From a virus: a stretch of DNA of 23,897 bases. A program made the position numbers and the translations under genes. Below the pieces are notes generated by a model. The model was not told the origin of the DNA. It was given only the letters and a program-made list of their open reading frames with translations, and did no database searches. The stretch is taken from positions 1 to 23,897 of IMG/VR virus record IMGVR_UViG_3300017917_001283. One strand, written 5' to 3'. Of the stretch, positions 2,624 through 23,424 are shown piece after piece; the first letter of the stretch is position 1, and every line of letters starts with the position of its first letter.

Positions 2624-3542
2624 AGATTACGCTTTGTTTTCATACGTATTCGGCGTTTCGATAAAAAATATAGGCTGAGAATATACCTTATTTTGAGAAT
2701 CTTTAGAAGGATTATGGTTTCCCTCCGTTTCCACCATCTTTTGAATGGTAATTCTCATCGCCGATTGGTTAGACCAATCACTCCTTGAGGTTTCAACTAC
2801 TCTTTTATTACTTAACTCTCTTTAACCTTGCGAGCTAACTCAGGATTCGACTCCTTAGAGGTTTTTCGTAAAAATACACTTCCACTTGCGGTGTTAGTGT
2901 GCCACGGACAGCCCGTGACTAAGTAGGCGACTTTCGTTAAAACCTAGTGGACATTTTTGCTTATAATTTTTTTAGAATACTTTGACATTTTCCTTAATAA
3001 TGATAAGTGTTTGTGTTGTGGATGATAGAAGTAGTAGTCCACTGAAAGCTCTCTAACCTTTTGAGTTAAAGAATACTAAACTACCTCTTAAGGTATCCCT
3101 ACCTTCATATTTCAAGTTTACTTCAAAAAGAGACCTTGGTAGGTCATCCTTAGGGATAGTAGCGACACCACTCGTTCTCCATCTTACCTTTCGGTTTTAA
3201 GTCAACTATTATATTGGAACTCGCAATGATATGGTTGGATGACCATACTTTTCACATAATTCCTATCGGTTATTCTTATAGGAGTTCCCTCCGCAACTTG
3301 ACAACCCACATTGCCAAGTCACCCAACCACTTTCGCTAAAGCGTTGCCCTCACTACTGAAGGTTGGATGATATCCGACTTGTATACTCGAGCTCCGTTGC
3401 CGAAGCCGCAAACCTGTTAACACAACAGATTCACTTTAGCCTACTTTCGTAGTTTATTTAACGACCATATACGGCCGATTATCGTTTCTCAAATCAACAT
3501 AATTCCGAAGAACTACATTAACCTGATGGATAATTCATTTTT

Positions 3543-3863: not shown

Positions 3864-3874
3864 TTTTTTTTTAG

Positions 3875-3960
3875 TTGCGAGGGGAGGAATCGAACCTCCA
3901 CAAGGGTTATAAGCCTACTATGGTTATGAGCCACAAATGTTACCATTACATCACCTCACG
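3875..3960 (-). tRNA. tRNA with CAU anticodon, long variable arm, C1-A72 mismatch
   Basis: An 86-nt cloverleaf. The acceptor CGTGAGG/CCTCGCA has a C1-A72 mismatch followed by discriminator A. The D-arm is ATGT/ACAT with GG in the loop. The anticodon stem TGTGG/CCATA holds the loop CTCATAA (anticodon at 3926-3928). The variable region is 19 nt, and the T-arm GGAGG/CCTCC has loop TTCGATT. CCA is not encoded, as is common in Bacteroidota. The C1-A72 mismatch and loop CTCATAA are those of initiator tRNA-fMet, but the anticodon stem lacks the three consecutive G-C pairs, the D-stem has Y11:R24, and the variable arm is of class II length. It may be an aberrant initiator, an elongator Met or an Ile2 (lysidine) tRNA. 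The endonuclease-like gene ends 5 nt upstream, and a shared transcript from 4696-4735 is likely. Confidence 0.85.
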
Positions 3961-4975: not shown

Positions 4976-5323
4976 ATGGAAGTTAAAATTAACGATAATA
5001 TTTTTAAGGTTAAGACCTTAATTGACGAGAAATCCAAGTATATTGGAATGATGGGTAAGAAATTTGACGAAACCTTTAACGGGCTATTATTTTTAATGGG
5101 TGGTAGCAAACAATGTTTTTGGATGAAGAATTGTATCCAAAATTTGGATATCATCATTATTAAGAATAATGTAATCGTAAATATCCACCACAATTGTCCT
5201 CCTTGTAATAGTAAGGAATGTCCAAGTTATTGTGGAAATGGTAATATTGTATTGGAAATCGATGGTGGAGCGTGTGAAAGACTTGGTATTGAACCAGGTG
5301 ATAGCGTTGAATATCTATTTTGA
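4976..5323 (+). CDS. DUF192 (UPF0127) family protein with Cys-rich insertion
   Basis: A 115-residue protein matching DUF192 over nearly its full length. It has the Y-I-G-M-M-G segment (22-27), G-L-L-F (36-39), F-W-M-K-N (48-52), L-D-I-I (57-60), a V-L-E-I strand (92-95) and G-I-E-P-G-D-S-V near the end (104-111). The family is small, with an all-beta fold and no firm biochemical role. Unlike exported members it has no signal peptide, so it should act in the cytoplasm. Four cysteines (C74, C77, C82, C86) sit where the family usually has a short loop and could bind zinc. The ATG at 4976 follows a TATATTTA element by a few bases. Its 3' end overlaps the convergent DHH gene by 9 bases. Confidence 0.85.
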   Translation: MEVKINDNIFKVKTLIDEKSKYIGMMGKKFDETFNGLLFLMGGSKQCFWMKNCIQNLDIIIIKNNVIVNIHHNCPPCNSKECPSYCGNGNIVLEIDGGACERLGIEPGDSVEYLF

Positions 5324-6718
5324 TTCTTTAATCTTTTCTTTCAACTTTCTCTCAAACTCAGCAGCAATCATTTTGGTAAACTTAACAGATGGAGAATCAT
5401 CTTTTTCTGAATCATATCTGTAAGCCCCCTTCGGTGGTCGTTTACTCCTTCCAAGGTAATTTAGTCCCGAGATATTTGTAATACATTTGTGTCCTCCACT
5501 ATTAGCCTGAATTAAATCCCAAGCGTTGATACCAATTTTGTCTAACATTTCTCTATGTTCTTCAGGTAATTCAGTGAATGGTATTTCCATCATTTCTTGG
5601 ATGTGGTCTAATACTTCTTCTCCGTTCTCCATCGTTGTGAACTTGTCACCATATAACGCTTTGAAGTCTTTGAATGTAAACCCAACACTTCCCGGTCCGA
5701 AATCTTTTGATGACTCTGAAACCCACTTAATGGTTGATAGTGGAATTGTTCTTTGTTTTAATTGGTCTTCCCATTTACCCAAAACTTCTTGAGCAATTTC
5801 TCCCAAGTTAACACCTTTCAACTCTCTTTCTTTCTTGAAAGGGTTACATGATGCTTGAACTAACCCTAACGGCCAAGCCATGATTAGGAAATCAGCCTCA
5901 GGATTATTTCTAAACGGAGTATATCTATCATATGAACCCGGTTTAAACATTGACCCTCCACCATATTGGAAAATAACATTGTCCTCAACCTTTGGATATC
6001 CTTTCATGGATTCTCTATAGGCTTCGGCATTCTTTTGTAAGTCTTCCGGAGTCGGTGCGTTAGTTTTTTTCATCCAATCTTTAATATTCGTTAATATCGA
6101 CATTAAAGATGGTTGCGAATCCATAACCAAACTTTCCAAAAATCCGGGTTTGTTTTTAAATGCTAGTAGTAATTTGTTAATCACTAACCCTAGTAGCATT
6201 TTATTTTTTTGTAAACTTTTATCCTTATCAATTCTGAATAAATAATTAACTACTTCATCAGGTGTTATATCATATTTCGCATAATCCGCAGAATCGACAG
6301 TGCTAATTAATAAAATATCTGAAGATGGGAATAAATCTTTCGGAGAAACTATTTGTGAAATTGTTTCAACATTTGAACGAGATGGCCTAAATGATGTTGA
6401 TTTGGTATCTTCAGCACCCGCCTGTCTATCGTGATGGTCTGTATGAATAACGAACATTGGTTTACCATGTGCAAAATCAACTAATACCGGCATTGTATCA
6501 CCAGTTGCATCATTTTTCTTTACAGAAAATTCTTTATCACCATATTGAATTACATGGGTTCCAACAACTTCAATACCATTATCTTCAAGGTATTTTTTCA
6601 TTGCAATTGCCGTGGTTACTCCATCTAAATCTTGATGGAAATATATTTCTGCTTTAGGATATCTCTTTCTTAATGCCGAAATATCTCGTAATCCTGATTC
6701 CGTTATTCTTTTTTTCAT
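5315..6718 (-). CDS. DHH-family phosphoesterase
   Basis: A 467-residue protein with the metal-binding motifs of DHH phosphoesterases: H-Q-D-L-D-G (28-33), V-D-F-A-H (80-84), H-T-D-H-H-D-R (92-98) and S-T-V-D-S-A-D-Y (139-146). The family holds RecJ exonucleases, nano-RNases and cyclic-dinucleotide phosphodiesterases. Which substrate applies here is not clear, and the C-terminal 300 residues do not show an obvious DHHA1 domain, although N-S-G-G-H-K-C near residue 408 recalls its GGH motif. A role in nucleic-acid turnover or in removing cyclic dinucleotide signals is possible. The N-terminus M-K-K-R-I-T-E-S-G-L resembles the start of the next protein upstream. It is third in the leftward group 7478 to 5315; its ATG directly abuts the preceding stop. 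Confidence 0.85.
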   Translation of the reverse strand: MKKRITESGLRDISALRKRYPKAEIYFHQDLDGVTTAIAMKKYLEDNGIEVVGTHVIQYGDKEFSVKKNDATGDTMPVLVDFAHGKPMFVIHTDHHDRQAGAEDTKSTSFRPSRSNVETISQIVSPKDLFPSSDILLISTVDSADYAKYDITPDEVVNYLFRIDKDKSLQKNKMLLGLVINKLLLAFKNKPGFLESLVMDSQPSLMSILTNIKDWMKKTNAPTPEDLQKNAEAYRESMKGYPKVEDNVIFQYGGGSMFKPGSYDRYTPFRNNPEADFLIMAWPLGLVQASCNPFKKERELKGVNLGEIAQEVLGKWEDQLKQRTIPLSTIKWVSESSKDFGPGSVGFTFKDFKALYGDKFTTMENGEEVLDHIQEMMEIPFTELPEEHREMLDKIGINAWDLIQANSGGHKCITNISGLNYLGRSKRPPKGAYRYDSEKDDSPSVKFTKMIAAEFERKLKEKIKESK

Positions 6719-7536: not shown

Positions 7537-8418
7537 TTATATATCCAACTTTAATTGTCGATTTAATGCAACAAAAGGTTTGACCCTTTCTCTACCAATA
7601 TTGGTGTAGTTTTCACTTAACTCAATCCCAATCCATCTTCGATTTAATGTTTCGGCAGCAACCGCAGTGGTTCCACTACCCATGAACGGGTCGAGAACAA
7701 TGTCATCCTTATAAGTTAAGATTTTTATTGCTTTAGACGGAATATCCAAACTGAATGTGGCTTTAGTCAATGATTTGGTATCCGCAAAATATTCCCATCT
7801 ACCAAAAACCAAATTCATAAATTCTTTTTTAGAAGCATCTTCATAAAACATTTTTGTTTTAACATTCCCTTCTTCATCTTTAACCTCGGTCGGAGTTCCT
7901 TTCCATTGAGATTCACCTTTGTTTAATTTTTTGGAGGATTTCTTATACGCCAATATCACACATTCTTTCGGATTGTAGATATATGGTGCAGATGCTGACA
8001 TCCAAGAACCCCAAGCTGTCTGTCTAACTCTATGAGGACTATCCTCAGTTAAATCCACCATCCCGAAGAATTTGAACCCAACTTCTTTCATTCTCATCCA
8101 AAACTCGGAGTTAAATAAAATTCTACCACCTCTTTCTTGGACATTAACTTCAATTGGGACATTAACCGCTATTCTCCCATCATCTTTTAACACTCTATAA
8201 GCCTCCGTTAACCATTTAATTGTAAAATCCCAATACTCTTCCATAGGAAGATTGTCGTCATAAACATCGTATTTAACATTGACTCCGTAGGGAGGTGATG
8301 TGACAACTAAATCAACACTACTTTCAGGTAATGTTTTCATCACCTCAACACAATCACCATTTATTATTTGTCCCGTGACATCTTCAATCTTTTCTATTAA
8401 ACTCATTCTATTATTCAC
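7537..8418 (-). CDS. Site-specific DNA methyltransferase (N6-adenine or N4-cytosine)
   Basis: A 293-residue enzyme with T-S-P-P-Y-G (40-45), the catalytic motif IV of amino-methyltransferases, ahead of D-P-F-M-G-S-G-T-T (243-251), the S-adenosylmethionine-binding motif I. This order marks the beta class. I-x-G-D-C (19-23) is the conserved lead-in. The TSPPY form occurs in both N4-cytosine and N6-adenine enzymes, so the base is undecided. No restriction partner is nearby, so it is an orphan enzyme, which phages use to protect their DNA from host restriction or to mark it. It starts at 8418 (overlap of 8 bases with DUF3310) or at an internal ATG at 8406. A second, D12-type methyltransferase lies at 23430. 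Confidence 0.9.
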   Translation of the reverse strand: MNNRMSLIEKIEDVTGQIINGDCVEVMKTLPESSVDLVVTSPPYGVNVKYDVYDDNLPMEEYWDFTIKWLTEAYRVLKDDGRIAVNVPIEVNVQERGGRILFNSEFWMRMKEVGFKFFGMVDLTEDSPHRVRQTAWGSWMSASAPYIYNPKECVILAYKKSSKKLNKGESQWKGTPTEVKDEEGNVKTKMFYEDASKKEFMNLVFGRWEYFADTKSLTKATFSLDIPSKAIKILTYKDDIVLDPFMGSGTTAVAAETLNRRWIGIELSENYTNIGRERVKPFVALNRQLKLDI

Positions 8419-8638
8419 TTATATTTTTTTCCAAAATTTCAATCTTTCTATCGAGATACCATCGAGCTTTCTTTAGGTCTTGAAGTTCTTTATCAGTATC
8501 TTTTTTTCCAGCTCTTGGGATATACTTCACGGTGTTTCCGAGGTGGAAATCTAATTCCCACGCTTCTATCACTTTTATTACTTCATAAACATTATCCGCT
8601 CCTCCGTAATGTTCGGGATGGTTAACCATTTCTCTCAT
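8411..8638 (-). CDS. DUF3310 protein
   Basis: A 75-residue protein that fits DUF3310 along its whole length: N-H-P-E-H-Y near the start (6-11), Y-E-V-I-K-V-I-E-A-W (19-28), L-G-N-T-V-K-Y-I-x-R-A-G-K-K (33-46), D-L-K-K-A-R-W-Y-L (54-62). The family is common in phages and often sits among nucleotide-metabolism or DNA-modification genes; its biochemical role is not settled. It is followed by the methyltransferase with an 8-base overlap, so the two are translated together. Confidence 0.9.
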   Translation of the reverse strand: MREMVNHPEHYGGADNVYEVIKVIEAWELDFHLGNTVKYIPRAGKKDTDKELQDLKKARWYLDRKIEILEKNISE

Positions 8639-8653
8639 ATTATTTTTTTTTTA

Positions 8654-8682
8654 TAAATGTAATCAAAATTTTATCGAATCAA
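8654..8682 (-). promoter_or_regulatory. Possible promoter for DUF3310 and methyltransferase
   Basis: Minus-strand TTG (8680-8682), 18 bases, then TACATTTA (8654-8661), a one-base miss from TAnnTTTG. It overlaps the 3' end of the adhesin gene, which has no terminator of its own, so readthrough from the adhesin transcript is the alternative. Confidence 0.3.
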
Positions 8683-11600
8683 AGTGATTGTTCCTTTTTT
8701 TGTTTCTGAAAATCCATTTAGATATTCAACATATAAACTATACGAATATGCTCCGGAAGGTGCCGGACTATTCTTAAATGAACCATCCCAAGTTTTTTCT
8801 TGAGTGTTCGATTCAAATACTTTTTCACCCCATCGATTAAACACCTTAAAATCAATCGTTTTAATTGCAGTTCCAAATATTCTAAACACATCATTTACTC
8901 CATCTTGATTTCCGGGTGTGAATGCGTTTGGAACATAAACCCCAAGTATTGGTCTAACCACCACATTAACTTTTGAACTACTAACACAATTATTATTGTA
9001 AATCATTGTTAGGGTATATTTTGTGTTAATGTATGGTGTTGCTATTGGTTTATCACAATCAGAACAACTTAAACTCTCGTTAGGAGTCCAAGTAACTATT
9101 TTTGTTATTGGTGTGTCACCAAATTGACTTGAGATTGTGTAATATAAATTAACACTTTCACCTAACATAATAGTATCAAGTCCAAATGTTTTCGCATGAA
9201 CCCTAATCAATGGAGGTTCTTTTAATGTTACTTTACGAAACACAAAACATTCATTGATGTCCTTAACCACAATATCATAAATCTTAGGTGATAAGTCAGT
9301 GAATCTTATTTTTTTACTAAAAGTTTTCCCTCCGTCAATTGAATAACTATATTGTTCAATTTCGTTTATTGTTCCTCCCTTAGCGTAGATTTCAATTATC
9401 CCATCATTAACACCATAACAACTTGGATTAACAACTTTAATACTTTCGAACTCCATTGGTGATGGTTCATCCAATTTCTTAACGATACTCTTAAAACATC
9501 CTTCAGTATCCACAACCGAAAAAGTGTAATTAATTTTTGAAGTTAAATATTCAAATTTGGTTTGATTTACCGGTAAACTATTAAACTCATACTTATATGG
9601 TGGTCTTCCTCCTTGAACTTTGAATATTATTCCTCCGTTATGGTTTCCATAACAAGTTATTGGGATAATACTATCAACCGTTATTATAATTGGGTTGGGT
9701 TGGTTTATAATAAATGAAGCACTATCAACACAACCATAGTTATCAGTAACCGAAACCGAATACTTACCCATACTTAAACCTCCAATCGCATTGGTTGTTT
9801 TACTGTTAGACCATAGGTATTCATACTTTGTTCCATTTCCTTTAACATAGGTATAAATCTCACCATTCATATTCCCATAACAATCAATATCTGTTTTATC
9901 ACCATAGAGTTTGATTGAACATGGGATAGTTTTTAATATGATACTATCAATAATAGTACAACCGAAGTCATCCCAAACGGTAACTCTAATCTTTGTCTCA
10001 CCTAAATTCTTAATAGTATCAATACTATTAATTGAATTTTTTATTGTAATCCATTTCTTAGTTAAATTGTTAAAACTATCCCAAGTAACTTGATAAGATG
10101 GTGTTCCTCCGAATGTGTTTAAAAATACCATTCCACTATTAATTGATTGACTTATTGGGTCTTTCTTTGATAAAGATATACCAATTTTTGTATCAGGTTC
10201 ATTAATATCAATAATTACACTATCTTTACACCCATTCTTATCCGTAATCATTACTTTTAAACTATCAGAATATAAATCAAATAGTTCGTTAATTCCCGGT
10301 AGGTTCTTGTTAGTCCCCTTTAATGAAGTCCAAGAGTAACTATAATTTGGTGTTCCTCCGTCCGTAGTTACCAATACATAACCACTACTATCACCTTTAC
10401 ATAACACATCAATAATTATTGAACTGGAGTTTAATGGTAATACCGATGGGATTGTAATTGAATCATAACCTTCACACCCACTTATCTTATCAACTACCTT
10501 AACATAGTATTTCCCAGTTGTAACCCCAACCATTTTATTAAAGGTGTCTTGTGGACTTCTACTCCACTCATACTTGTAATTTCCTGAACCAGTCTGAGGG
10601 ATAACATAAACACTATCTGAATTTTCCCCATTACATCTAATTGGTTCATAATTCATACTTAACTTTAACGGAACTTGAACTGCAGGTAATGAAACTAGTT
10701 GTGAACCCTTACAAGTCGGATTACTTTTTAAATTAACCTCAACTCTATAATTGTTTGGTGATAAGTTAATGGCTCTAATTGAATCCGATACATTTGGAGT
10801 CCAAATGAAATTATATTGACTACTCTTCGTTCCTAATGGTAGGTTGACCATTAACTCACCATTCGATAATAAACAAATTGGTGACACATTATTCAAACTT
10901 ATTTTAATTGAATCTTCCACCATCAGATATGCGGTGTCAGTTGCTTCACAAGTTGAAGATGTTATTTTAACGACATAATTGTATGTTCCCGGTATTAATG
11001 GGTTTACTTGGATGGTGTTAGTATTCCCACCTGTCATCGTAGCGTCATTTGGTGATGATACCCAATTTATAGTATATGGTTGAATAGATTTAACATTTGA
11101 AGTTATTGTTATTGAACTACCTGTGCCTGCTTCCTTACATACTACCCCGCCGCCAACGGCTTTAATCCTAAAATTGGTGTCAGAATTTACCTTAACATTA
11201 CCACTACCAAAACAAGTTGAGTTACCATAAGTTATTGTGAATATTGAATCTGTTTGATTAGCAGTAATGATTGCTCTTGGACTACCAATTGTTGGTTTTT
11301 TCACCAAATAATCCGGAGACCATGTCGTTGTGAATTGAACATCAGAACTATCAATTCCCGACATATTAAATCTTGTGTGCGGTTTTGACTGAGTTCCTCC
11401 GCCAGCAATAAAATTTGTAGTTAAATCACAAGAATTAACACCAATAACATTTGACGCTCTATATGAAACTTCATTTCCACTTGGAGTTACATTTGTTAGA
11501 TATCTATTAGTTAAAGGACTTGGAGTTGAATTATTAACACAAATCTCCACTAATATATTACTATTCCCATCCCAATCAAATCCTCTATCAAATGTATATG

Positions 11601-13869
11601 TATTCCACCCTAGGTTTACACTAATCGGTTTACTGTAAACAACATATAAAGGTGATGTCACCAATGAACTATTACTGGATGTCCCACCAATTTTAATTTC
11701 AAAATTATCGAAGTTTGAAACATTAACTTGAGTGATGTTAAACCCAATTGATTTAATAATTCCCGATTTAAGTCCGGCGCCCAATAATTGAGCTTTGGTG
11801 TATAAAATTCGAGTAGTTGATGACTTACCAAGTAATGTTGTTCCAAAAATGTTTGGGTAACATGAGGTTCCGGAACATGATGTCGCCGGATAGGTTATAC
11901 TCCCACTATTAATGGTTCTTGTAATGTTTTCACTATTACTCTTATAGATTGTAGGACCACTGATGTTTGGAGAAATCCTCGCGCTTAACATAGTTGTATC
12001 ACCAGGACATATGTTTGTTCGATTAGCCGTTGGTAGAATTTTAGATACAACCCCTTTCAAACTAACAACCACAGAATCAATAATAACACAACCAAATCTA
12101 TTTTCCATTTCGATTGTGTAAGTCATGTTTTTATTCACATAACACAATGGATTTGTTGATGTATTGGTTGGGTATTTGGTGATGGGGTCATATAGGTTCT
12201 CACTCTTCAACCATCGATATTTGTATGGTGTATCTGAAGTTTGGGTATTCACTCTAATTGAAAAACTATCACCTAAACATAAATTCCTTAATTTTGGTGA
12301 TAAAGTATAATTAAATGGTGGGATAACCCTTACTACAACACTATCATATATCGTACAGGTCTCTATTGTATCCAAGTCCAAAGATTTTGCAACATATGTC
12401 GTAGTTGATGTCGGGGCGATATCCACCCAAACACTATCGGGTCCGGCATTTACAATACCCGTTTTAGGAAACCATGAAACTTTTTTAGCTGATGTAGATT
12501 TTATTCTAACCGGTTTACCTCCCGGACAATAATTAACCAATTCTCTATCAAGAGTCATTGACTTCATATACCTAATTCGAACCGCAATATCAATACTACG
12601 TTTCATCCCGATATTATTACAATAGTAGAAATTAAAAAGTAATTTTTCGTCCCCTGACCCTATCGCAGAATCAAATTCAACAATACCGTATGTTGTATCA
12701 ACACCCGCAACACTTCTTTTATATGTGGTGAATTTGTAATTAACCAAATCTCGACTAGCATATTTATTTTGTTCTACTTCTTTCAATATCATGTTTTGAT
12801 TCACCGCACCAATCGCTTTAAACATAATCTTTCCGGGTTGTCTTCCACAAACCTCAATGAAATAGTTGTTAATCTCATTTGCCCCAAACATCGAATCTTT
12901 CAAAGTCTGACCACTAAACATGGCCTCACAATTATCTCGAACTGAAAATTGTATGTCTCTACAAACATAACCCAAAAATTCTCGGGTATATCCTCCGTTT
13001 GGTTGGGGGACTGCCCTCCATTCCAAAACGGCAACTGCCATTATCGCGTCTTGGTCTCTATCAGGAGTCGCACTAATCAAACCAGTAAATGGGTTAATGG
13101 TTACACCATTTGTTGTGTATAGGAAATTAACAGCGTTTAATCCAGGTTGGAAGGTAACTGATGGATTACCAAGTTGGATTGCAATTCCCGGTGTTGGCGA
13201 TTCACCAATAAATGGAGAATAAAGTAAGTATGAGATAGAATCTCTTATAATAGTTTTACCTCCAATGGTTACATACTTATCATCAAAAGTATCTGCTGGT
13301 CCATGAGCGTATGTATTTAGAACAAGTTTACACCAATATGGGACGGGGTTGTTAGTGAAGATTACCGAATTGTTCACATACTTGGTATCAAATGCAGTTT
13401 GAACTAACATTGATGGTGAACCGACTATGGTGGTAATAGTATTTCTCGCATTTTCAGTATAACTAGCATACGCAGCACCAATATTTCTACCTATGGTGAA
13501 GTTACATTTTAACACTTCTTTCATAACCCCTTTTATAAAATCAGGTGCTATGGGCATAACATTTGGTCCCGGACAATGTGTTATTTTCTTAGCTAATACA
13601 TCAGGTGGTAAACATAATGGAGTTACTTCAGATGTTTCCGATGAAATTAATGTCATCGGAACAAAAGTATTAACCAAACTTGAGACTATATGTAAATTAT
13701 TATTCACATAATTAATGCCTCCACAATATCTGTATCTTGTTAGGGTAAACTCGTATGTTCCATTTATGGTGTCAATCATCCTATAGGTTATGTCGGCACC
13801 CATAACGTGTGTCCCATAACTATGGAAAAATGAACATAGTAGGACTAAACTTAATATTAATTTCTTCAT
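8671..13869 (-). CDS. Giant secreted adhesin with SprB-type repeats and type IX secretion C-terminal domain
   Basis: A 1732-residue protein. Residues 1-19 are a signal peptide (basic start, leucine-rich core, cleavage near S-Y-G). The mature start T-H-V-M-G-A-D-I-T-Y-R is typical of large Bacteroidota adhesins. A Cys-rich, beta-rich middle with PKD-like parts follows. From about 1100 to 1555 there are five or so repeats that open with C-Y-G-x-x-x-G or C-K-G-D-S-S-G, contain G-G-x-x-x-Y-x-Y-x-W and close with V-x-D-x-x-G-C: SprB-type repeats. Residues 1644-1732 are the gliding-motility-associated C-terminal domain (CHU_C type), with V-P-N-A-F-T-P-G-x-x-D-G-x-N-D-x-F, F-N-R-W-G-x-x-V-F and W-D-G at the expected places. 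The protein should cross the inner membrane by Sec and be placed on the cell surface by the host T9SS. The reading frame is intact. Finding such a gene among phage-type genes is unusual. Confidence 0.92.
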   Translation of the reverse strand: MKKLILSLVLLCSFFHSYGTHVMGADITYRMIDTINGTYEFTLTRYRYCGGINYVNNNLHIVSSLVNTFVPMTLISSETSEVTPLCLPPDVLAKKITHCPGPNVMPIAPDFIKGVMKEVLKCNFTIGRNIGAAYASYTENARNTITTIVGSPSMLVQTAFDTKYVNNSVIFTNNPVPYWCKLVLNTYAHGPADTFDDKYVTIGGKTIIRDSISYLLYSPFIGESPTPGIAIQLGNPSVTFQPGLNAVNFLYTTNGVTINPFTGLISATPDRDQDAIMAVAVLEWRAVPQPNGGYTREFLGYVCRDIQFSVRDNCEAMFSGQTLKDSMFGANEINNYFIEVCGRQPGKIMFKAIGAVNQNMILKEVEQNKYASRDLVNYKFTTYKRSVAGVDTTYGIVEFDSAIGSGDEKLLFNFYYCNNIGMKRSIDIAVRIRYMKSMTLDRELVNYCPGGKPVRIKSTSAKKVSWFPKTGIVNAGPDSVWVDIAPTSTTTYVAKSLDLDTIETCTIYDSVVVRVIPPFNYTLSPKLRNLCLGDSFSIRVNTQTSDTPYKYRWLKSENLYDPITKYPTNTSTNPLCYVNKNMTYTIEMENRFGCVIIDSVVVSLKGVVSKILPTANRTNICPGDTTMLSARISPNISGPTIYKSNSENITRTINSGSITYPATSCSGTSCYPNIFGTTLLGKSSTTRILYTKAQLLGAGLKSGIIKSIGFNITQVNVSNFDNFEIKIGGTSSNSSLVTSPLYVVYSKPISVNLGWNTYTFDRGFDWDGNSNILVEICVNNSTPSPLTNRYLTNVTPSGNEVSYRASNVIGVNSCDLTTNFIAGGGTQSKPHTRFNMSGIDSSDVQFTTTWSPDYLVKKPTIGSPRAIITANQTDSIFTITYGNSTCFGSGNVKVNSDTNFRIKAVGGGVVCKEAGTGSSITITSNVKSIQPYTINWVSSPNDATMTGGNTNTIQVNPLIPGTYNYVVKITSSTCEATDTAYLMVEDSIKISLNNVSPICLLSNGELMVNLPLGTKSSQYNFIWTPNVSDSIRAINLSPNNYRVEVNLKSNPTCKGSQLVSLPAVQVPLKLSMNYEPIRCNGENSDSVYVIPQTGSGNYKYEWSRSPQDTFNKMVGVTTGKYYVKVVDKISGCEGYDSITIPSVLPLNSSSIIIDVLCKGDSSGYVLVTTDGGTPNYSYSWTSLKGTNKNLPGINELFDLYSDSLKVMITDKNGCKDSVIIDINEPDTKIGISLSKKDPISQSINSGMVFLNTFGGTPSYQVTWDSFNNLTKKWITIKNSINSIDTIKNLGETKIRVTVWDDFGCTIIDSIILKTIPCSIKLYGDKTDIDCYGNMNGEIYTYVKGNGTKYEYLWSNSKTTNAIGGLSMGKYSVSVTDNYGCVDSASFIINQPNPIIITVDSIIPITCYGNHNGGIIFKVQGGRPPYKYEFNSLPVNQTKFEYLTSKINYTFSVVDTEGCFKSIVKKLDEPSPMEFESIKVVNPSCYGVNDGIIEIYAKGGTINEIEQYSYSIDGGKTFSKKIRFTDLSPKIYDIVVKDINECFVFRKVTLKEPPLIRVHAKTFGLDTIMLGESVNLYYTISSQFGDTPITKIVTWTPNESLSCSDCDKPIATPYINTKYTLTMIYNNNCVSSSKVNVVVRPILGVYVPNAFTPGNQDGVNDVFRIFGTAIKTIDFKVFNRWGEKVFESNTQEKTWDGSFKNSPAPSGAYSYSLYVEYLNGFSETKKGTITLIR

Positions 13870-13870
13870 C

Positions 13871-14062
13871 TTATTGTTGTTTTGTTACATAATAATCTCT
13901 CCCATATTTCGATTCTTCCAAAATATTTTGACCAACCAGTTCATTAATAATTTGGGTGGTTTCTTCCATTGGTTTTTTAATTACATATTTTGATATGTAA
14001 TCAATGTGGATTGGTTGTCTTAATTTACCTATTAATAATTTTGTGATTTTATCGTCCACCAT
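13871..14062 (-). CDS. Small winged-helix-like protein
   Basis: A 63-residue protein with a helix-turn-helix pattern (residues 15-47: I-H-I-D-Y-I-S-K-Y-V ... E-E-T-T-Q-I-I-N-E-L-V) followed by a short beta hairpin (I-L-E-E-S-K-Y-G-R-D-Y-Y-V), which is how a winged helix reads. It could be a DNA-binding regulator, but at this size it may also be a domain-only protein. Its stop lies one base before the adhesin start, so it is co-transcribed with the adhesin and could control it. The call is based on pattern only. Confidence 0.55.
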   Translation of the reverse strand: MVDDKITKLLIGKLRQPIHIDYISKYVIKKPMEETTQIINELVGQNILEESKYGRDYYVTKQQ

Positions 14063-14396: not shown

Positions 14397-15170
14397 TTAA
14401 GAGTCAAAATTTTTTATTTTACCCAAATTTGTTGTTTGATATATATAACTCATAACCTTTCTTTTTGTTATTGGAATTAAGGTTTGTTCCATAGGTAAAT
14501 CTTGATTACACTCCATTTGAAATACTGGAAACATTTTGACATTTTTTGTTTTACTAAAGGTAGAATGGGTTTCAATTACTGAAGTCAATGTTACATCCTC
14601 AAGAATATTTTCATATATCAATTTAATGGTATTTTGATTGATGTTCGGGATTTTTCGGGATTTTTTGATTTGATATTCCCATATGTAAACTTTATTATCT
14701 TGCTTCTTATAAAAGAAAATAAAACCAATCCCCAAATGAAGATTATTTTTATTCTTTTTTAAGGTGATATCAATAGTATCGAATGCAACATTCCATATTG
14801 ATTTTGCGTGGTTGAATACTTCATATAATTTTGCATTGGAGTATTCAATTGTCTTTTTTAACTCGATAGCTTCATCCTCCGAGAGTTTTCTTGGTTTTTT
14901 TGGATATAAGTCCCTTAATAGAATTTCATCATCACATGATTGAAATTTCTTATCTGTTAACAATAAAGTATTTTCTTTGTTAAGGGATTGTATGTTTGCC
15001 AAATGTAGGGATAACTCTACAAAATCCGGATAAATTTCAAAATTATTTAAACTTTGTTCACATTTTTGTATGTAACCTAAAAGGGTATATTTGTTATATT
15101 CAAAATCCAATGGTTCTTTTAACATCCACTCGGGATTTAATTTGAAATCTATTTTTTTCTTTCTTCCCAT
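14397..15170 (-). CDS. Hypothetical phage protein
   Basis: A 257-residue protein with a basic start (M-G-R-K-K-K-I-D-F-K) and a helical N-terminal half (to about residue 130), then a beta-rich half (about 140-250). It is soluble, with no signal peptide or metal motif. I do not recognise a named family. It begins at ATG 15170, 30 bases after the stop of the WCT-motif gene 15201-16955. No terminator lies between, so it may share that gene's transcript. Function unknown. Confidence 0.7.
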   Translation of the reverse strand: MGRKKKIDFKLNPEWMLKEPLDFEYNKYTLLGYIQKCEQSLNNFEIYPDFVELSLHLANIQSLNKENTLLLTDKKFQSCDDEILLRDLYPKKPRKLSEDEAIELKKTIEYSNAKLYEVFNHAKSIWNVAFDTIDITLKKNKNNLHLGIGFIFFYKKQDNKVYIWEYQIKKSRKIPNINQNTIKLIYENILEDVTLTSVIETHSTFSKTKNVKMFPVFQMECNQDLPMEQTLIPITKRKVMSYIYQTTNLGKIKNFDS

Positions 15171-15200: not shown

Positions 15201-16955
15201 TCAATTGATTCTCATAACATAATACCATTCATCTTTAACTTTCACCTCATCAGCGTTTCCATCATATCCATTTAAAATGTTAGCATAACCATCGGTATCT
15301 ATAACATCTTGTATAAATGATTTTCTATCGATAAAATTGTTATAATCTAAACCCCAATCATTAATATAACCTGCAGGGTCATATTTAACATCTCTAAGTC
15401 TATCTTCAACCGCCGCTTCTATCAATTCTTCAGGATATTCTCCTTCAGGACTTGATTCAATATCGGATATCTCATCATTTATTTCTTCAATTTCGGCATT
15501 TATTTCATCAATATTATTTTGAATTTCGTCATCATCTTCACCACCTAATTCATATTCAAGTCTTTCAACTTTTGCTTCAAACACCTCAATCTTTCTTTTT
15601 AGAAAACTTATTTGGTCTTCTTGTTCGTCCGATAACATTCTATCTTCTTCAGCCAAATAAGATTCAGGACTCTCTCTAACATCATCATCAAAAAAATCTC
15701 TAAAATAATCAACCACTTCACCGGTATCAATATGATTCATTACAAAACTTTTATGATACCCGTCGTATCCAATATCATCAATTAGTGAGTCAGTTTTATC
15801 ATATGCACTACTTTCCATTTCCCTTTCAGTTCCAACCGCATATTCTCTATCATCCAATCCCGCATCAATCACAATAAATTCTGTGGTATCATAAAACTCA
15901 CCATTCGGTATTATATTATAAACATCAATTTTGTTATTAAATTCGGATAACTCATCTTCCAAATCACTAATCTCATCAAGTAAATCAGTTCTAGGTTCAT
16001 CACTATTGTCATATTCCGCCTGTAATCTTTCGATTTCAGTTTGAATTCTTTCCATCTCCACTCGGTCTTCATTTGTAATAACATCAACATCATTATTATC
16101 CACTAACCACTCTAATAAAGCATGTGCCTTTAATCCCTCTTCAGGACAAGCAGGGTCATCCAAAGACCACCAATCATCAAGTCTTCTTTCTTCCGCTTCA
16201 TTTCTTCTTCCCCGTAAAATTCTTTGGGTTTCTAAGGCTTGGAGTCTTTCTTTTTCTCTTTTAGCTGATACCTTATCTGAATATATTTTAATCTGCTCCG
16301 GATATTCTTTATTCATATAATCATCGACCGTATCTAAAATCTCTTTCAATTTATTTGAATTCCATAACCAACCACTTCGAATAACGTCATCCTTTGCGTC
16401 ATAAAATGTTTTATCCCCATCAAACTTTTTCAATAAAGCAACTTTATAATACGGGTTACTAGTTGGGAGAGTTCTATCCATAATATAAAACAATTTCCCA
16501 TCTTCATTGTAACGACTAAATTGTTGGTTATTAGTTGCTGCGGTACACCACTTGGTTCCCTTACCATAATAACAAGAAGAATCCAATGTCAATGGATTAA
16601 CTATAAAATATCTACCATCATCATACACAACATTACCACCACTAACAGGTTTTACTTTACGTCTTAATCTTTGTTCGTATTCAGTTAACGCGGACAATAA
16701 TTGTCCAACGCTCTTATATTGATATAAGTCTGTTATTGGTAAGTTAGTAGAAATCTTTTCAAATTTATTCAATGCGTTTGATAATTTATCCAAATTTTCT
16801 TCAAAATTTATATTGTCTAAATTTTTTCCAACCCAATCCAAAAATTTATGAGGAACTTTCGAAACTATGTTATTCACATTATTCCCAAATTTTTGAGAAT
16901 ACTTTGATTTGAAATCATTGACTCTACCTTCCTGTATTAATCTTACAAAATCCAT
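15201..16955 (-). CDS. WCT-motif phage protein with long acidic coiled-coil region (paralogue 2 of 3)
   Basis: A 584-residue protein. After a helical N-terminal region (1-105) comes the WCT domain: V-V-Y-D-D-G-R-Y-F-I-V (109-119), Y-G-K-G-T-K-W-C-T-A (130-139), F-x-x-Y-N-E-D-G-K-L-F-Y-I-M-D near 146-160, K-V-A-L (about 171) and F-Y-D-A-K-D-D-V-I (about 184-192). This is the clearest copy of the domain shared with 1561-2448 and 22044-23360. From about 220 to 520 the chain is very acidic, with two heptad-rich coiled coils (about 295-335 and 440-490). The C-terminus (about 525-584) looks like a small beta domain. Its start V-R-L-I-Q-E-G-R-V-N-D-F recalls N-termini of other phage proteins. Function unknown; scaffold-like architecture. 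Confidence 0.8.
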   Translation of the reverse strand: MDFVRLIQEGRVNDFKSKYSQKFGNNVNNIVSKVPHKFLDWVGKNLDNINFEENLDKLSNALNKFEKISTNLPITDLYQYKSVGQLLSALTEYEQRLRRKVKPVSGGNVVYDDGRYFIVNPLTLDSSCYYGKGTKWCTAATNNQQFSRYNEDGKLFYIMDRTLPTSNPYYKVALLKKFDGDKTFYDAKDDVIRSGWLWNSNKLKEILDTVDDYMNKEYPEQIKIYSDKVSAKREKERLQALETQRILRGRRNEAEERRLDDWWSLDDPACPEEGLKAHALLEWLVDNNDVDVITNEDRVEMERIQTEIERLQAEYDNSDEPRTDLLDEISDLEDELSEFNNKIDVYNIIPNGEFYDTTEFIVIDAGLDDREYAVGTEREMESSAYDKTDSLIDDIGYDGYHKSFVMNHIDTGEVVDYFRDFFDDDVRESPESYLAEEDRMLSDEQEDQISFLKRKIEVFEAKVERLEYELGGEDDDEIQNNIDEINAEIEEINDEISDIESSPEGEYPEELIEAAVEDRLRDVKYDPAGYINDWGLDYNNFIDRKSFIQDVIDTDGYANILNGYDGNADEVKVKDEWYYVMRIN

Positions 16956-22043: not shown

Positions 22044-23360
22044 TTAATCTTGTAGGTCCCACATTCCTCCTCCCATGTCGTTTCCTTTTTGTCTCATGGC
22101 ATCAGGGATTTGAACATTTGGACTACCTTTTAGGTTTACGAAATATATGTTTGGTAAATTAACAACGCATTCAGGGATATTTGTAAGTTTTGGATTGTTA
22201 ATTAACGCTAAAAATCTTAATTTTTCCAATTCACAAATTGTATCCGGAACACGTTCAACACAATTATCAAATAATAATAGATTTAAATTTTTGAATTTGT
22301 TGATTGATTCAGGAATATTAATGATAACATCATTTTTATCTCGATTCTGAATCTGAAGTTCAGTTAACGTTAACGGCAAACTATCAAATAAATCATCAAG
22401 ACCATATAATCCAATAAATTTACCAACCGCACCGGAACTAAAACTATCGATAACTAATTTCTCACCATTTAATGTTAATCCTTTGGCAAACTCAGGTTTA
22501 AAGAAATCTTTTAATTCTGACATTGGTCCGTTTAAATATTGTACCAAGTCAATTTGTCGGTCATCTCTGTCCATGAATTGATTACTTGGGAAATGGAATT
22601 GGTATCTCTCTTTAGGTAATCCTGTTTGAGGTGAGATGTCAGTATCTCCTGGTCTGAATACAACATATAGAGGTCCGTCCTTAATGTATCTTTCAAAATA
22701 TGATAATCCCGGAGCAGATGTACACCATCTCGTTTCTTGATTATTTCCACCATAAAAACAAGCCGCTTCTTTACCTACCGCACCTTTATCTTTAATCTCA
22801 ATTACTCTCCAAGTTGGTCCATCAAACAATATTTTAGAACCAGGGTGAACCGGAGCCGATTTTCTTTCAGATTTACTTGTTGTTGCCAAAGTTAAATCAA
22901 AATCTTTAACCGCGTCATAAAGACTTGAAGGATTTAATTTATTAATATCCCTCATTTCTTGAGGTAATTTATTCTTAAATCTTTCAAACTTTGTAAGGTC
23001 TTCGGTTACTTTATATAAGTCTTCCATAAAAGTATCCTTAACTTGTTTTACTTCTTTTTCGTATCCGTTATCACCAGGCTGTCTTTCGGTTGTTGGTGTT
23101 AGATAATTTTTAATCAACCATTGAACATATTTACCGGCTTTAACATTACCTAGTTCTTTAGAATCGGCAGTTGCCATATCAACGTTATTAGTTCTTGTCG
23201 TTGGGTCGGCATTAACTAAAGCTATAAATTCCTCTTTACTTAATTTTGGTTTTACCGTCTTACCTTCTTTATTAGTTGATGGTTTTGTTAGTGCATCAAA
23301 TAACAACTCAAATCTTGATTGTTCCAAAATTACTCTCTTTAATATTGACGTAAATTTCAT
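22044..23360 (-). CDS. WCT-motif protein with leucine-rich repeats (paralogue 3 of 3)
   Basis: A 438-residue protein. The start was chosen at the ATG at 23360; the reading frame runs further upstream through a TTG, but the promoter at 23397-23424 argues against it. The N-terminus I-L-K-R-V-I-L-E-Q (6-14) is a basic amphipathic helix like that of gene 6719-7105. The WCT domain follows: strand near 176-190, Y-G-G (203-205), R211-W-C213-T-S, F-x-x-Y (221-224), L-Y-V-V-F (229-233) and F-M-D-R-D-D (about 259-264). It differs from the other copies by R for K. Residues about 327-425 contain four or five leucine-rich repeats with the I-P-x-x-I/C-V and L-x-x-L-x-x-L spacing. The repeats suggest binding of another protein. 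Function unknown. Confidence 0.82.
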   Translation of the reverse strand: MKFTSILKRVILEQSRFELLFDALTKPSTNKEGKTVKPKLSKEEFIALVNADPTTRTNNVDMATADSKELGNVKAGKYVQWLIKNYLTPTTERQPGDNGYEKEVKQVKDTFMEDLYKVTEDLTKFERFKNKLPQEMRDINKLNPSSLYDAVKDFDLTLATTSKSERKSAPVHPGSKILFDGPTWRVIEIKDKGAVGKEAACFYGGNNQETRWCTSAPGLSYFERYIKDGPLYVVFRPGDTDISPQTGLPKERYQFHFPSNQFMDRDDRQIDLVQYLNGPMSELKDFFKPEFAKGLTLNGEKLVIDSFSSGAVGKFIGLYGLDDLFDSLPLTLTELQIQNRDKNDVIINIPESINKFKNLNLLLFDNCVERVPDTICELEKLRFLALINNPKLTNIPECVVNLPNIYFVNLKGSPNVQIPDAMRQKGNDMGGGMWDLQD

Positions 23361-23396
23361 TTGTTGTATTTTTATATTATAAATATGTTGAGGATA

Positions 23397-23424
23397 CAAA
23401 AATAATACATTTTTCGTAAATCAA
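23397..23424 (-). promoter_or_regulatory. Bacteroidota-type promoter for WCT-LRR gene
   Basis: Minus-strand TTG (23422-23424), 17 bases, then TATTTTTG (23397-23404). The predicted start leaves a leader of about 30 bases before the ATG at 23360. The spacer is two bases shorter than in the promoters of the RNA island. Confidence 0.55.

Follow-up and report, generated by a model that had tools for sequence, protein, structure and literature searches.

A giant type IX secretion cargo protein of probable host origin in a variable gene slot of a Bacteroidota phage

Phages are known to alter the surface of their hosts by means of small membrane proteins or changes in lipopolysaccharide. SprB, the gliding adhesin of Flavobacterium johnsoniae, is a giant surface protein with SprB repeats and a type-B signal for the type IX secretion system (T9SS). 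The locus described here belongs to an IMG/VR virus record, a fragment 23,897 bases long (the window, meaning the whole stretch analysed), and encodes a 1732-residue adhesin-like protein whose likeness to SprB is confined to the repeat and sorting domains; no gliding role is implied for the phage protein.

Phage-encoded T9SS cargo has been described before. In Cryophage (Bellas et al. 2020, PMC7468147), as in the window, variable gene slots encode proteins that end in T9SS signals, and its authors likewise suggest reliance on the host system and a role in superinfection exclusion. The cargo reported there, comprising an endoglucanase, a glycoside hydrolase and a PA14 protein, has type-A signals, in contrast to that of the window, a giant adhesin-like protein with SprB repeats, a type-B signal and traced chromosomal counterparts, from one host family that was captured repeatedly. 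A T9SS sorting domain is likewise present in the BACON ORF of crAss-like phages of Bacteroidetes, although that protein has BACON repeats and lies near head genes, and its description (PMC6949934) reports neither an N-terminal module nor SprB repeats. GhpA of Aureispira (PDB 9flp) resembles the window protein in its C-terminal sorting domain by profile, but is 5898 residues long and gave no match to the full window protein at E 0.01. In the passages covered, from a literature search that reached few subscription journals, we found neither a giant type-B SprB-repeat phage protein with traced host counterparts nor the repeated capture of one host protein family by phages. Thus, while phage-encoded T9SS cargo is already known, what appears to be new is the giant type-B SprB-repeat kind, the traced host counterparts and the repeated capture.

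The adhesin gene and its slot in the phage genome

The gene is a single intact open reading frame on the minus strand, with an ATG start and 1732 codons uninterrupted by a stop. Its parts are as follows.

8671..13869 (-), giant T9SS type-B cargo protein (adhesin-like), 1732 residues; from the reading frame, Pfam and NCBIfam
13813..13869 (-), predicted signal peptide, residues 1-19; from the hydrophobic run and charge, with the cleavage site inferred
12931..13812 (-), N-terminal module, residues 20-313, without a Pfam family; homologues in Bacteroidota chromosomal proteins and two other phage groups
9190..10593 (-), SprB-repeat region, about residues 1093-1560, outer limits approximate; five Pfam stretches, the best at 1152-1182
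8680..8934 (-), CHU_C / TIGR04131 type-B T9SS sorting domain, residues 1646-1730; from Pfam and NCBIfam

The Pfam match to CHU_C (PF13585, E 2.2e-18) was above the cut-off, the SprB repeats (PF13573) were found at E 2.2e-15, and the extreme C-terminus (residues 1646-1732) matched TIGR04131 with E 1.1e-13 and 51.1 bits against a curated cut-off of 35. In charge and hydrophobicity the N-terminus, MKKLILSLVLLCSFFHSYG/THVMGAD, is like a type I signal peptide; a KK pair, a hydrophobic core and small residues ahead of T20 are features of Sec signal peptides and place the predicted cleavage site. Because 1732 open codons carry these domains in order, chance is excluded and the gene is real. An earlier note, made from the letters of this DNA, had described a 1732-residue protein with a signal peptide, SprB repeats and a CHU_C C-terminal domain, and the profile matches and the features of the predicted signal peptide bear that description out.

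The protein matched no PHROG family, and no solved structure of note was found for the whole adhesin or its N-terminal module. The AlphaFold model of that module (mean pLDDT 64.7) consists of two β-sandwich domains, Ig-like and then cadherin-like by weak matches, the best VIA-align hit being to cadherin repeats with Z 5.8 and an rmsd of 2.5 over 101 residues. Foldseek returned nothing from the PDB below E 0.001, and the top matches among viral predicted structures were Ig-domain proteins. The modelled fold is compatible with adhesion, not diagnostic of it, and is too weak to name a function.

The genes on either side are of phage type and include, besides a Dps-like protein, the following.

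5315..6718 (-), DHH-family protein, a marker gene of the phage group, related to proteins of two huge phages (634 and 642 kb) and of no fewer than 598 viral stretches
7537..8418 (-), N6/N4 DNA methyltransferase of phage type, with PHROG matches
8411..8638 (-), DUF3310 gene (DUF3310/phage nucleotide kinase family), bordering the insert downstream
13871..14062 (-), 63-residue gene bordering the insert upstream, its stop codon one base from the adhesin ATG
14397..15170 (-), conserved phage gene of 257 residues, upstream of the slot
15201..16955 (-), conserved phage gene of 584 residues, upstream of the slot

From the scan with the DHH-family protein, 80 of the viral relatives were kept. When 26 window genes were compared with the relatives' loci, the neighbours proved collinear on both sides of the adhesin, with about 76-97% amino-acid identity between the flanking genes of the window and those of its closest relatives (L017, L018, L020 and L112). 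In L112 and L017 the site is empty, 2-21 bp separating the 63-residue gene from the DUF3310 gene where the window has 5.2 kb, and it is also empty, at 27 bp, in L028-L031. At the junction the DUF3310 protein begins MREMVN in the window and MENNKEMVN in the relatives. Elsewhere the slot is filled by what we take from sequence to be a glutamine synthetase of about 400 residues (L018, L020-L022 and L032) or, in other relatives, by small reading frames. With its site cleanly vacant in the close relatives L017 and L112, the adhesin gene is distributed as a moron would be.

Codon usage of the adhesin lies at a distance of 0.085 from the other window genes and 0.152 from host genes, and its GC3 of 0.246 is close to that of the other phage genes (0.233) and below that of the host homologues (0.29-0.34). 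Since its ATG follows the upstream stop by one base, the adhesin can be placed inside an operon-like run of genes, which points to expression by read-through of the operon rather than from a promoter and terminator of its own.

The DHH-family protein is 40-46% identical to its counterparts in the two huge phages, which encode three to four CHU_C proteins each. The large terminase subunit (TerL) was not found in the fragments of the window's own clade, apart from one weak match in a 317 kb contig; the link to tailed phages is therefore made through these huge phages and through related contigs of 233-295 kb.

Two further observations concern the slot. The same glutamine synthetase-like protein at the slot, at 5726-6938 in L018, was also seen in L026, L034, L049, L077, L249 and L273, and may serve these phages in nitrogen metabolism. 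L017 (4058-4849) and L112 (18055-18852) encode, between their DUF3310 and methyltransferase genes, a protein of 263-265 residues that by eye resembles a LAGLIDADG homing endonuclease; it adjoins the variable slot and might drive the exchange of cargo there.

Chromosomal relatives and repeated entry into phages

The host clade escaped a phylum-wide search of 395 sampled genomes and was recovered at order level, within one Bacteroidota order. Four genomes (G433, G453, G464 and G475) each encode several paralogues with 31-49% identity (best E 1e-101) to the N-terminal 356 residues, while all other genomes of that search reached 5e-15 at best. Chromosomal proteins of 2303 and 2307 residues (genomes G453/G464; loci L344 and L338) are collinear with the window adhesin over its whole length, at 36% identity over residues 1-1459 and 31% over 1093-1732, and the one that was scanned (L338) has both SprB repeats and CHU_C. 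They differ from the window protein in being bacterial, about 570 residues longer and present as several paralogues per genome. The genes beside several of the paralogues, which by eye we take to be uvrA, fusA and infB, look chromosomal.

In a maximum-likelihood tree of 89 phage and bacterial N-terminal modules, the window protein groups with those of L306, L307 and L344, a set that includes the 2303-2307-residue proteins, with support of 99/94. On these comparisons the adhesin derives from a protein family encoded on Bacteroidota chromosomes, and we are confident that the adhesin gene is a host surface-protein gene that was captured by a phage and now resides in its genome. The homologues that the earlier note had proposed to use for dating the transfer were thus found; as the window adhesin sits on a long branch of 0.82 changes per column, either the transfer is old or the donor is unsampled. 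None of the 22 spacers of the CRISPR array of G464 matched the window or related loci beyond 16 of 30 nucleotides, and because of this negative result the phage's host is tentatively assigned through the ancestry of the adhesin alone. That array, of 23 repeats, lies at L351 2501-8875 in the same candidate host, with cas1, cas2 and a cas9 in two frames, beside two adhesin paralogues.

Homologues of the gene were also found in two other groups of related phages, as the earlier note had suggested looking for, although at different positions; no second phage with the adhesin in the same slot was found among the relatives, so that this record is the only one, and an exact-peptide scan of IMG/VR revealed no close relatives of the whole protein. 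One group (L031/L106) encodes a 1615-residue homologue that lies in another slot, behind the DHH gene; several metagenomes yielded records with the identical protein, which shares 79% identity over 1605 residues with a 1612-residue protein of L216, whose flanks we take by eye to be pyrimidine-synthesis and other chromosomal genes. The other (L120/L137/L181 and kin) encodes homologues of about 1511 residues directly after homologues of window genes g1234 and g653, and its contigs of 233 and 295 kb carry TerL. The phage proteins fall at three places in the tree, each inside a different bacterial clade, and the well-supported branches force at least three changes, so that the family entered phages on at least three separate occasions. 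Where scanned, the architecture of phage and host proteins agreed, SprB repeats being present in the window and L338 and absent from both L031 and L216.

Between two phage copies of the 1511-residue group (L124 and L181), dN was 0.057 and dS 0.764 over 1511 codons, a dN/dS of about 0.07; the copies in related phages are under purifying selection. This figure belongs to the other phages' copies, as synonymous sites between the window copy and its nearest relative are saturated, and for the window copy the evidence of constraint is that a 5.2 kb reading frame has stayed intact along a long branch. The suggestion that so large a gene is too costly to be dispensable needs qualifying: the family's copies in related phages are under selection, but a lineage can lack the gene, with the slot empty or refilled.

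Export, surface display and competing explanations

Type-B cargo needs a PorP/SprF partner, as in the SprB/SprF pair. SprA (PF14349) was detected in 10 of 10 bacteria, which served as the positive control, and in 0 of 19 viral records, most of them fragments; PorP/SprF (PF11751) was present at 8-18 copies per genome in 7 of 7 bacteria and in 0 of 13 viral records, again mostly fragments. Because both are absent from the phage records tested, export by the host system is the natural reading, and it is likely that the adhesin is exported by the host's own T9SS.

We suggest the following scheme. A large tailed Bacteroidota phage would keep the captured gene as functional cargo (a 'moron') in a variable slot between co-directional genes and express it with its neighbours during infection. 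The product would cross the inner membrane through its signal peptide (Sec) and be exported by the host T9SS through its type-B C-terminal signal, with host SprA and PorP/SprF, to appear on the surface of the infected cell beside the host's own members of the adhesin family. With the display so altered, competing phages that adsorb to T9SS-exported adhesins may no longer bind, and superinfection could be excluded by receptor replacement, by masking or by competition for export. In Flavobacterium, the phage receptors have been proposed to be SprB and RemA, both T9SS adhesins, or else the gliding machinery (PMC7345892 and PMC13288928), and it is because of such proposals, made for bacteria other than this host, that receptor masking comes into consideration. 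Taken as a whole, a captured, host-exported adhesin that remodels the infected surface against competing phages is the best explanation we can offer, but we put it forward tentatively, at a little short of an even chance; granted capture, residence and host export, the chances that its role concerns receptors are, by analogy, about even.

The earlier note had proposed that a phage copy of a host adhesin is displayed by the host. Synteny, empty sites, host homologues, purifying selection in relatives and the lack of SprA and PorP/SprF uphold a phage-borne T9SS adhesin of host origin; its expression, export, surface display and effect on other phages are inferred from sequence. A superinfection block, a change in gliding, aggregation and the capture of new hosts are all compatible with these features, while production during lysogeny found no support in this analysis.

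The main rival to a receptor role is that the host-exported protein sticks infected cells to surfaces, particles or other cells, leading to aggregation, to retention of infected cells or to the delivery of new hosts, with no anti-phage role, a possibility of real weight although well below an even chance. The adhesive Bacteroidota architecture, with its SprB repeats and Ig/cadherin-like N-terminal model, would suit such a function, and the profile of the C-terminal domain matches the grappling hook GhpA of Aureispira (9flp, E 9e-25); however, that match tells of the export route and not of function, the fold matches are weak, and the present data do not separate adhesion from the receptor role. 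Ig-like proteins are common on virions, and the Ig-domain matches among viral predicted structures might suggest a virion component, either a tail fibre or a decoration of the head, made up of adhesin modules of host origin. Such a structural part is nevertheless improbable: a protein assembled into virions in the cytoplasm would need neither a signal peptide nor a C-terminal T9SS signal, the neighbours are genes of DNA metabolism and not tail genes, and a virion part would be replaced in close relatives rather than missing from the site.

That absence from the nearest relatives would also be expected of neutral passenger DNA from the host on its way to loss, which we consider just as improbable as a virion part given the intact frame on a long branch, the phage-like codon usage, the purifying selection on related phage copies and the three separate captures of the same family. 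As the adhesin is known in this slot from one record alone, two artefacts also had to be weighed, namely phage and bacterial DNA joined in a chimeric assembly and a bacterial contig wrongly filed among the viruses; the earlier note had named both as grounds for rejecting the phage-borne gene. A bacterial chromosome is contradicted by flanks, among them the phage-type DUF3310, methyltransferase and Dps-like genes, that are collinear in many viral contigs. A chimeric join around 8640 or 13870 is very unlikely, since both joins fall exactly at gene borders, the flanks resume the relatives' order, the empty site in L017 and L112 is clean, and codon usage and GC3 are phage-like; the 1615-residue protein is a parallel case, identical across several metagenomes. 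Artefact of either kind is accordingly the most remote of the explanations considered.

Returning to the remodelling of the infected surface, we note that related large phages acquired an adhesin of 1500-1700 residues on at least three occasions, from three host lineages, which suggests that such remodelling brings a strong advantage time and again. It may even be that large Bacteroidota phages systematically capture and swap their hosts' giant T9SS surface proteins, a general form of receptor replacement that joins phage cargo to a host export machine; we regard this wider proposal as doubtful for now, but if it holds, every infected cell would display a surface chosen by the phage. The repeated capture lends itself to tests in cultivable T9SS bacteria and is relevant to the ways in which phages exploit gliding adhesins as receptors and defend them. 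Since each phage copy sits in one host clade, adhesin copies also offer a means of linking these uncultivated phages to hosts by sequence.

Other features of the phage group

Further predicted secreted proteins were observed in viral contigs. L109 (8258-15840) and L110 (7703-14631), from related phages, share a conserved run of signal-peptide proteins beside a peptidoglycan-binding protein, the first of which (639 residues) ends in a type-A T9SS signal (Por_Secre_tail) and represents a second, conserved kind of phage T9SS cargo. A CHU_C family of about 650 residues that starts YCPxLGPDQxLPCGxxxTTLTA recurs in the viral contigs L138-L190 (IMG/VR) and also occurs in L108 (7897-10116), a relative of the window.

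The window also encodes the giant non-coding RNA GOLLD (RF02032, E 8.5e-87) at 2672-3088 on the minus strand, inside a 1.3 kb gene-free stretch and adjoining a tRNA-Met at 3874-3960. GOLLD was not found in L120 or L181; it was present in L016, L019, L021, L034 and L106/L107 and seems common to this group of Bacteroidota phages. Lastly, three window proteins (1561-2448, 15201-16955 and 22044-23399) share a domain that matches phrog_17056/28193 or one another, forming a small family repeated within the phage.
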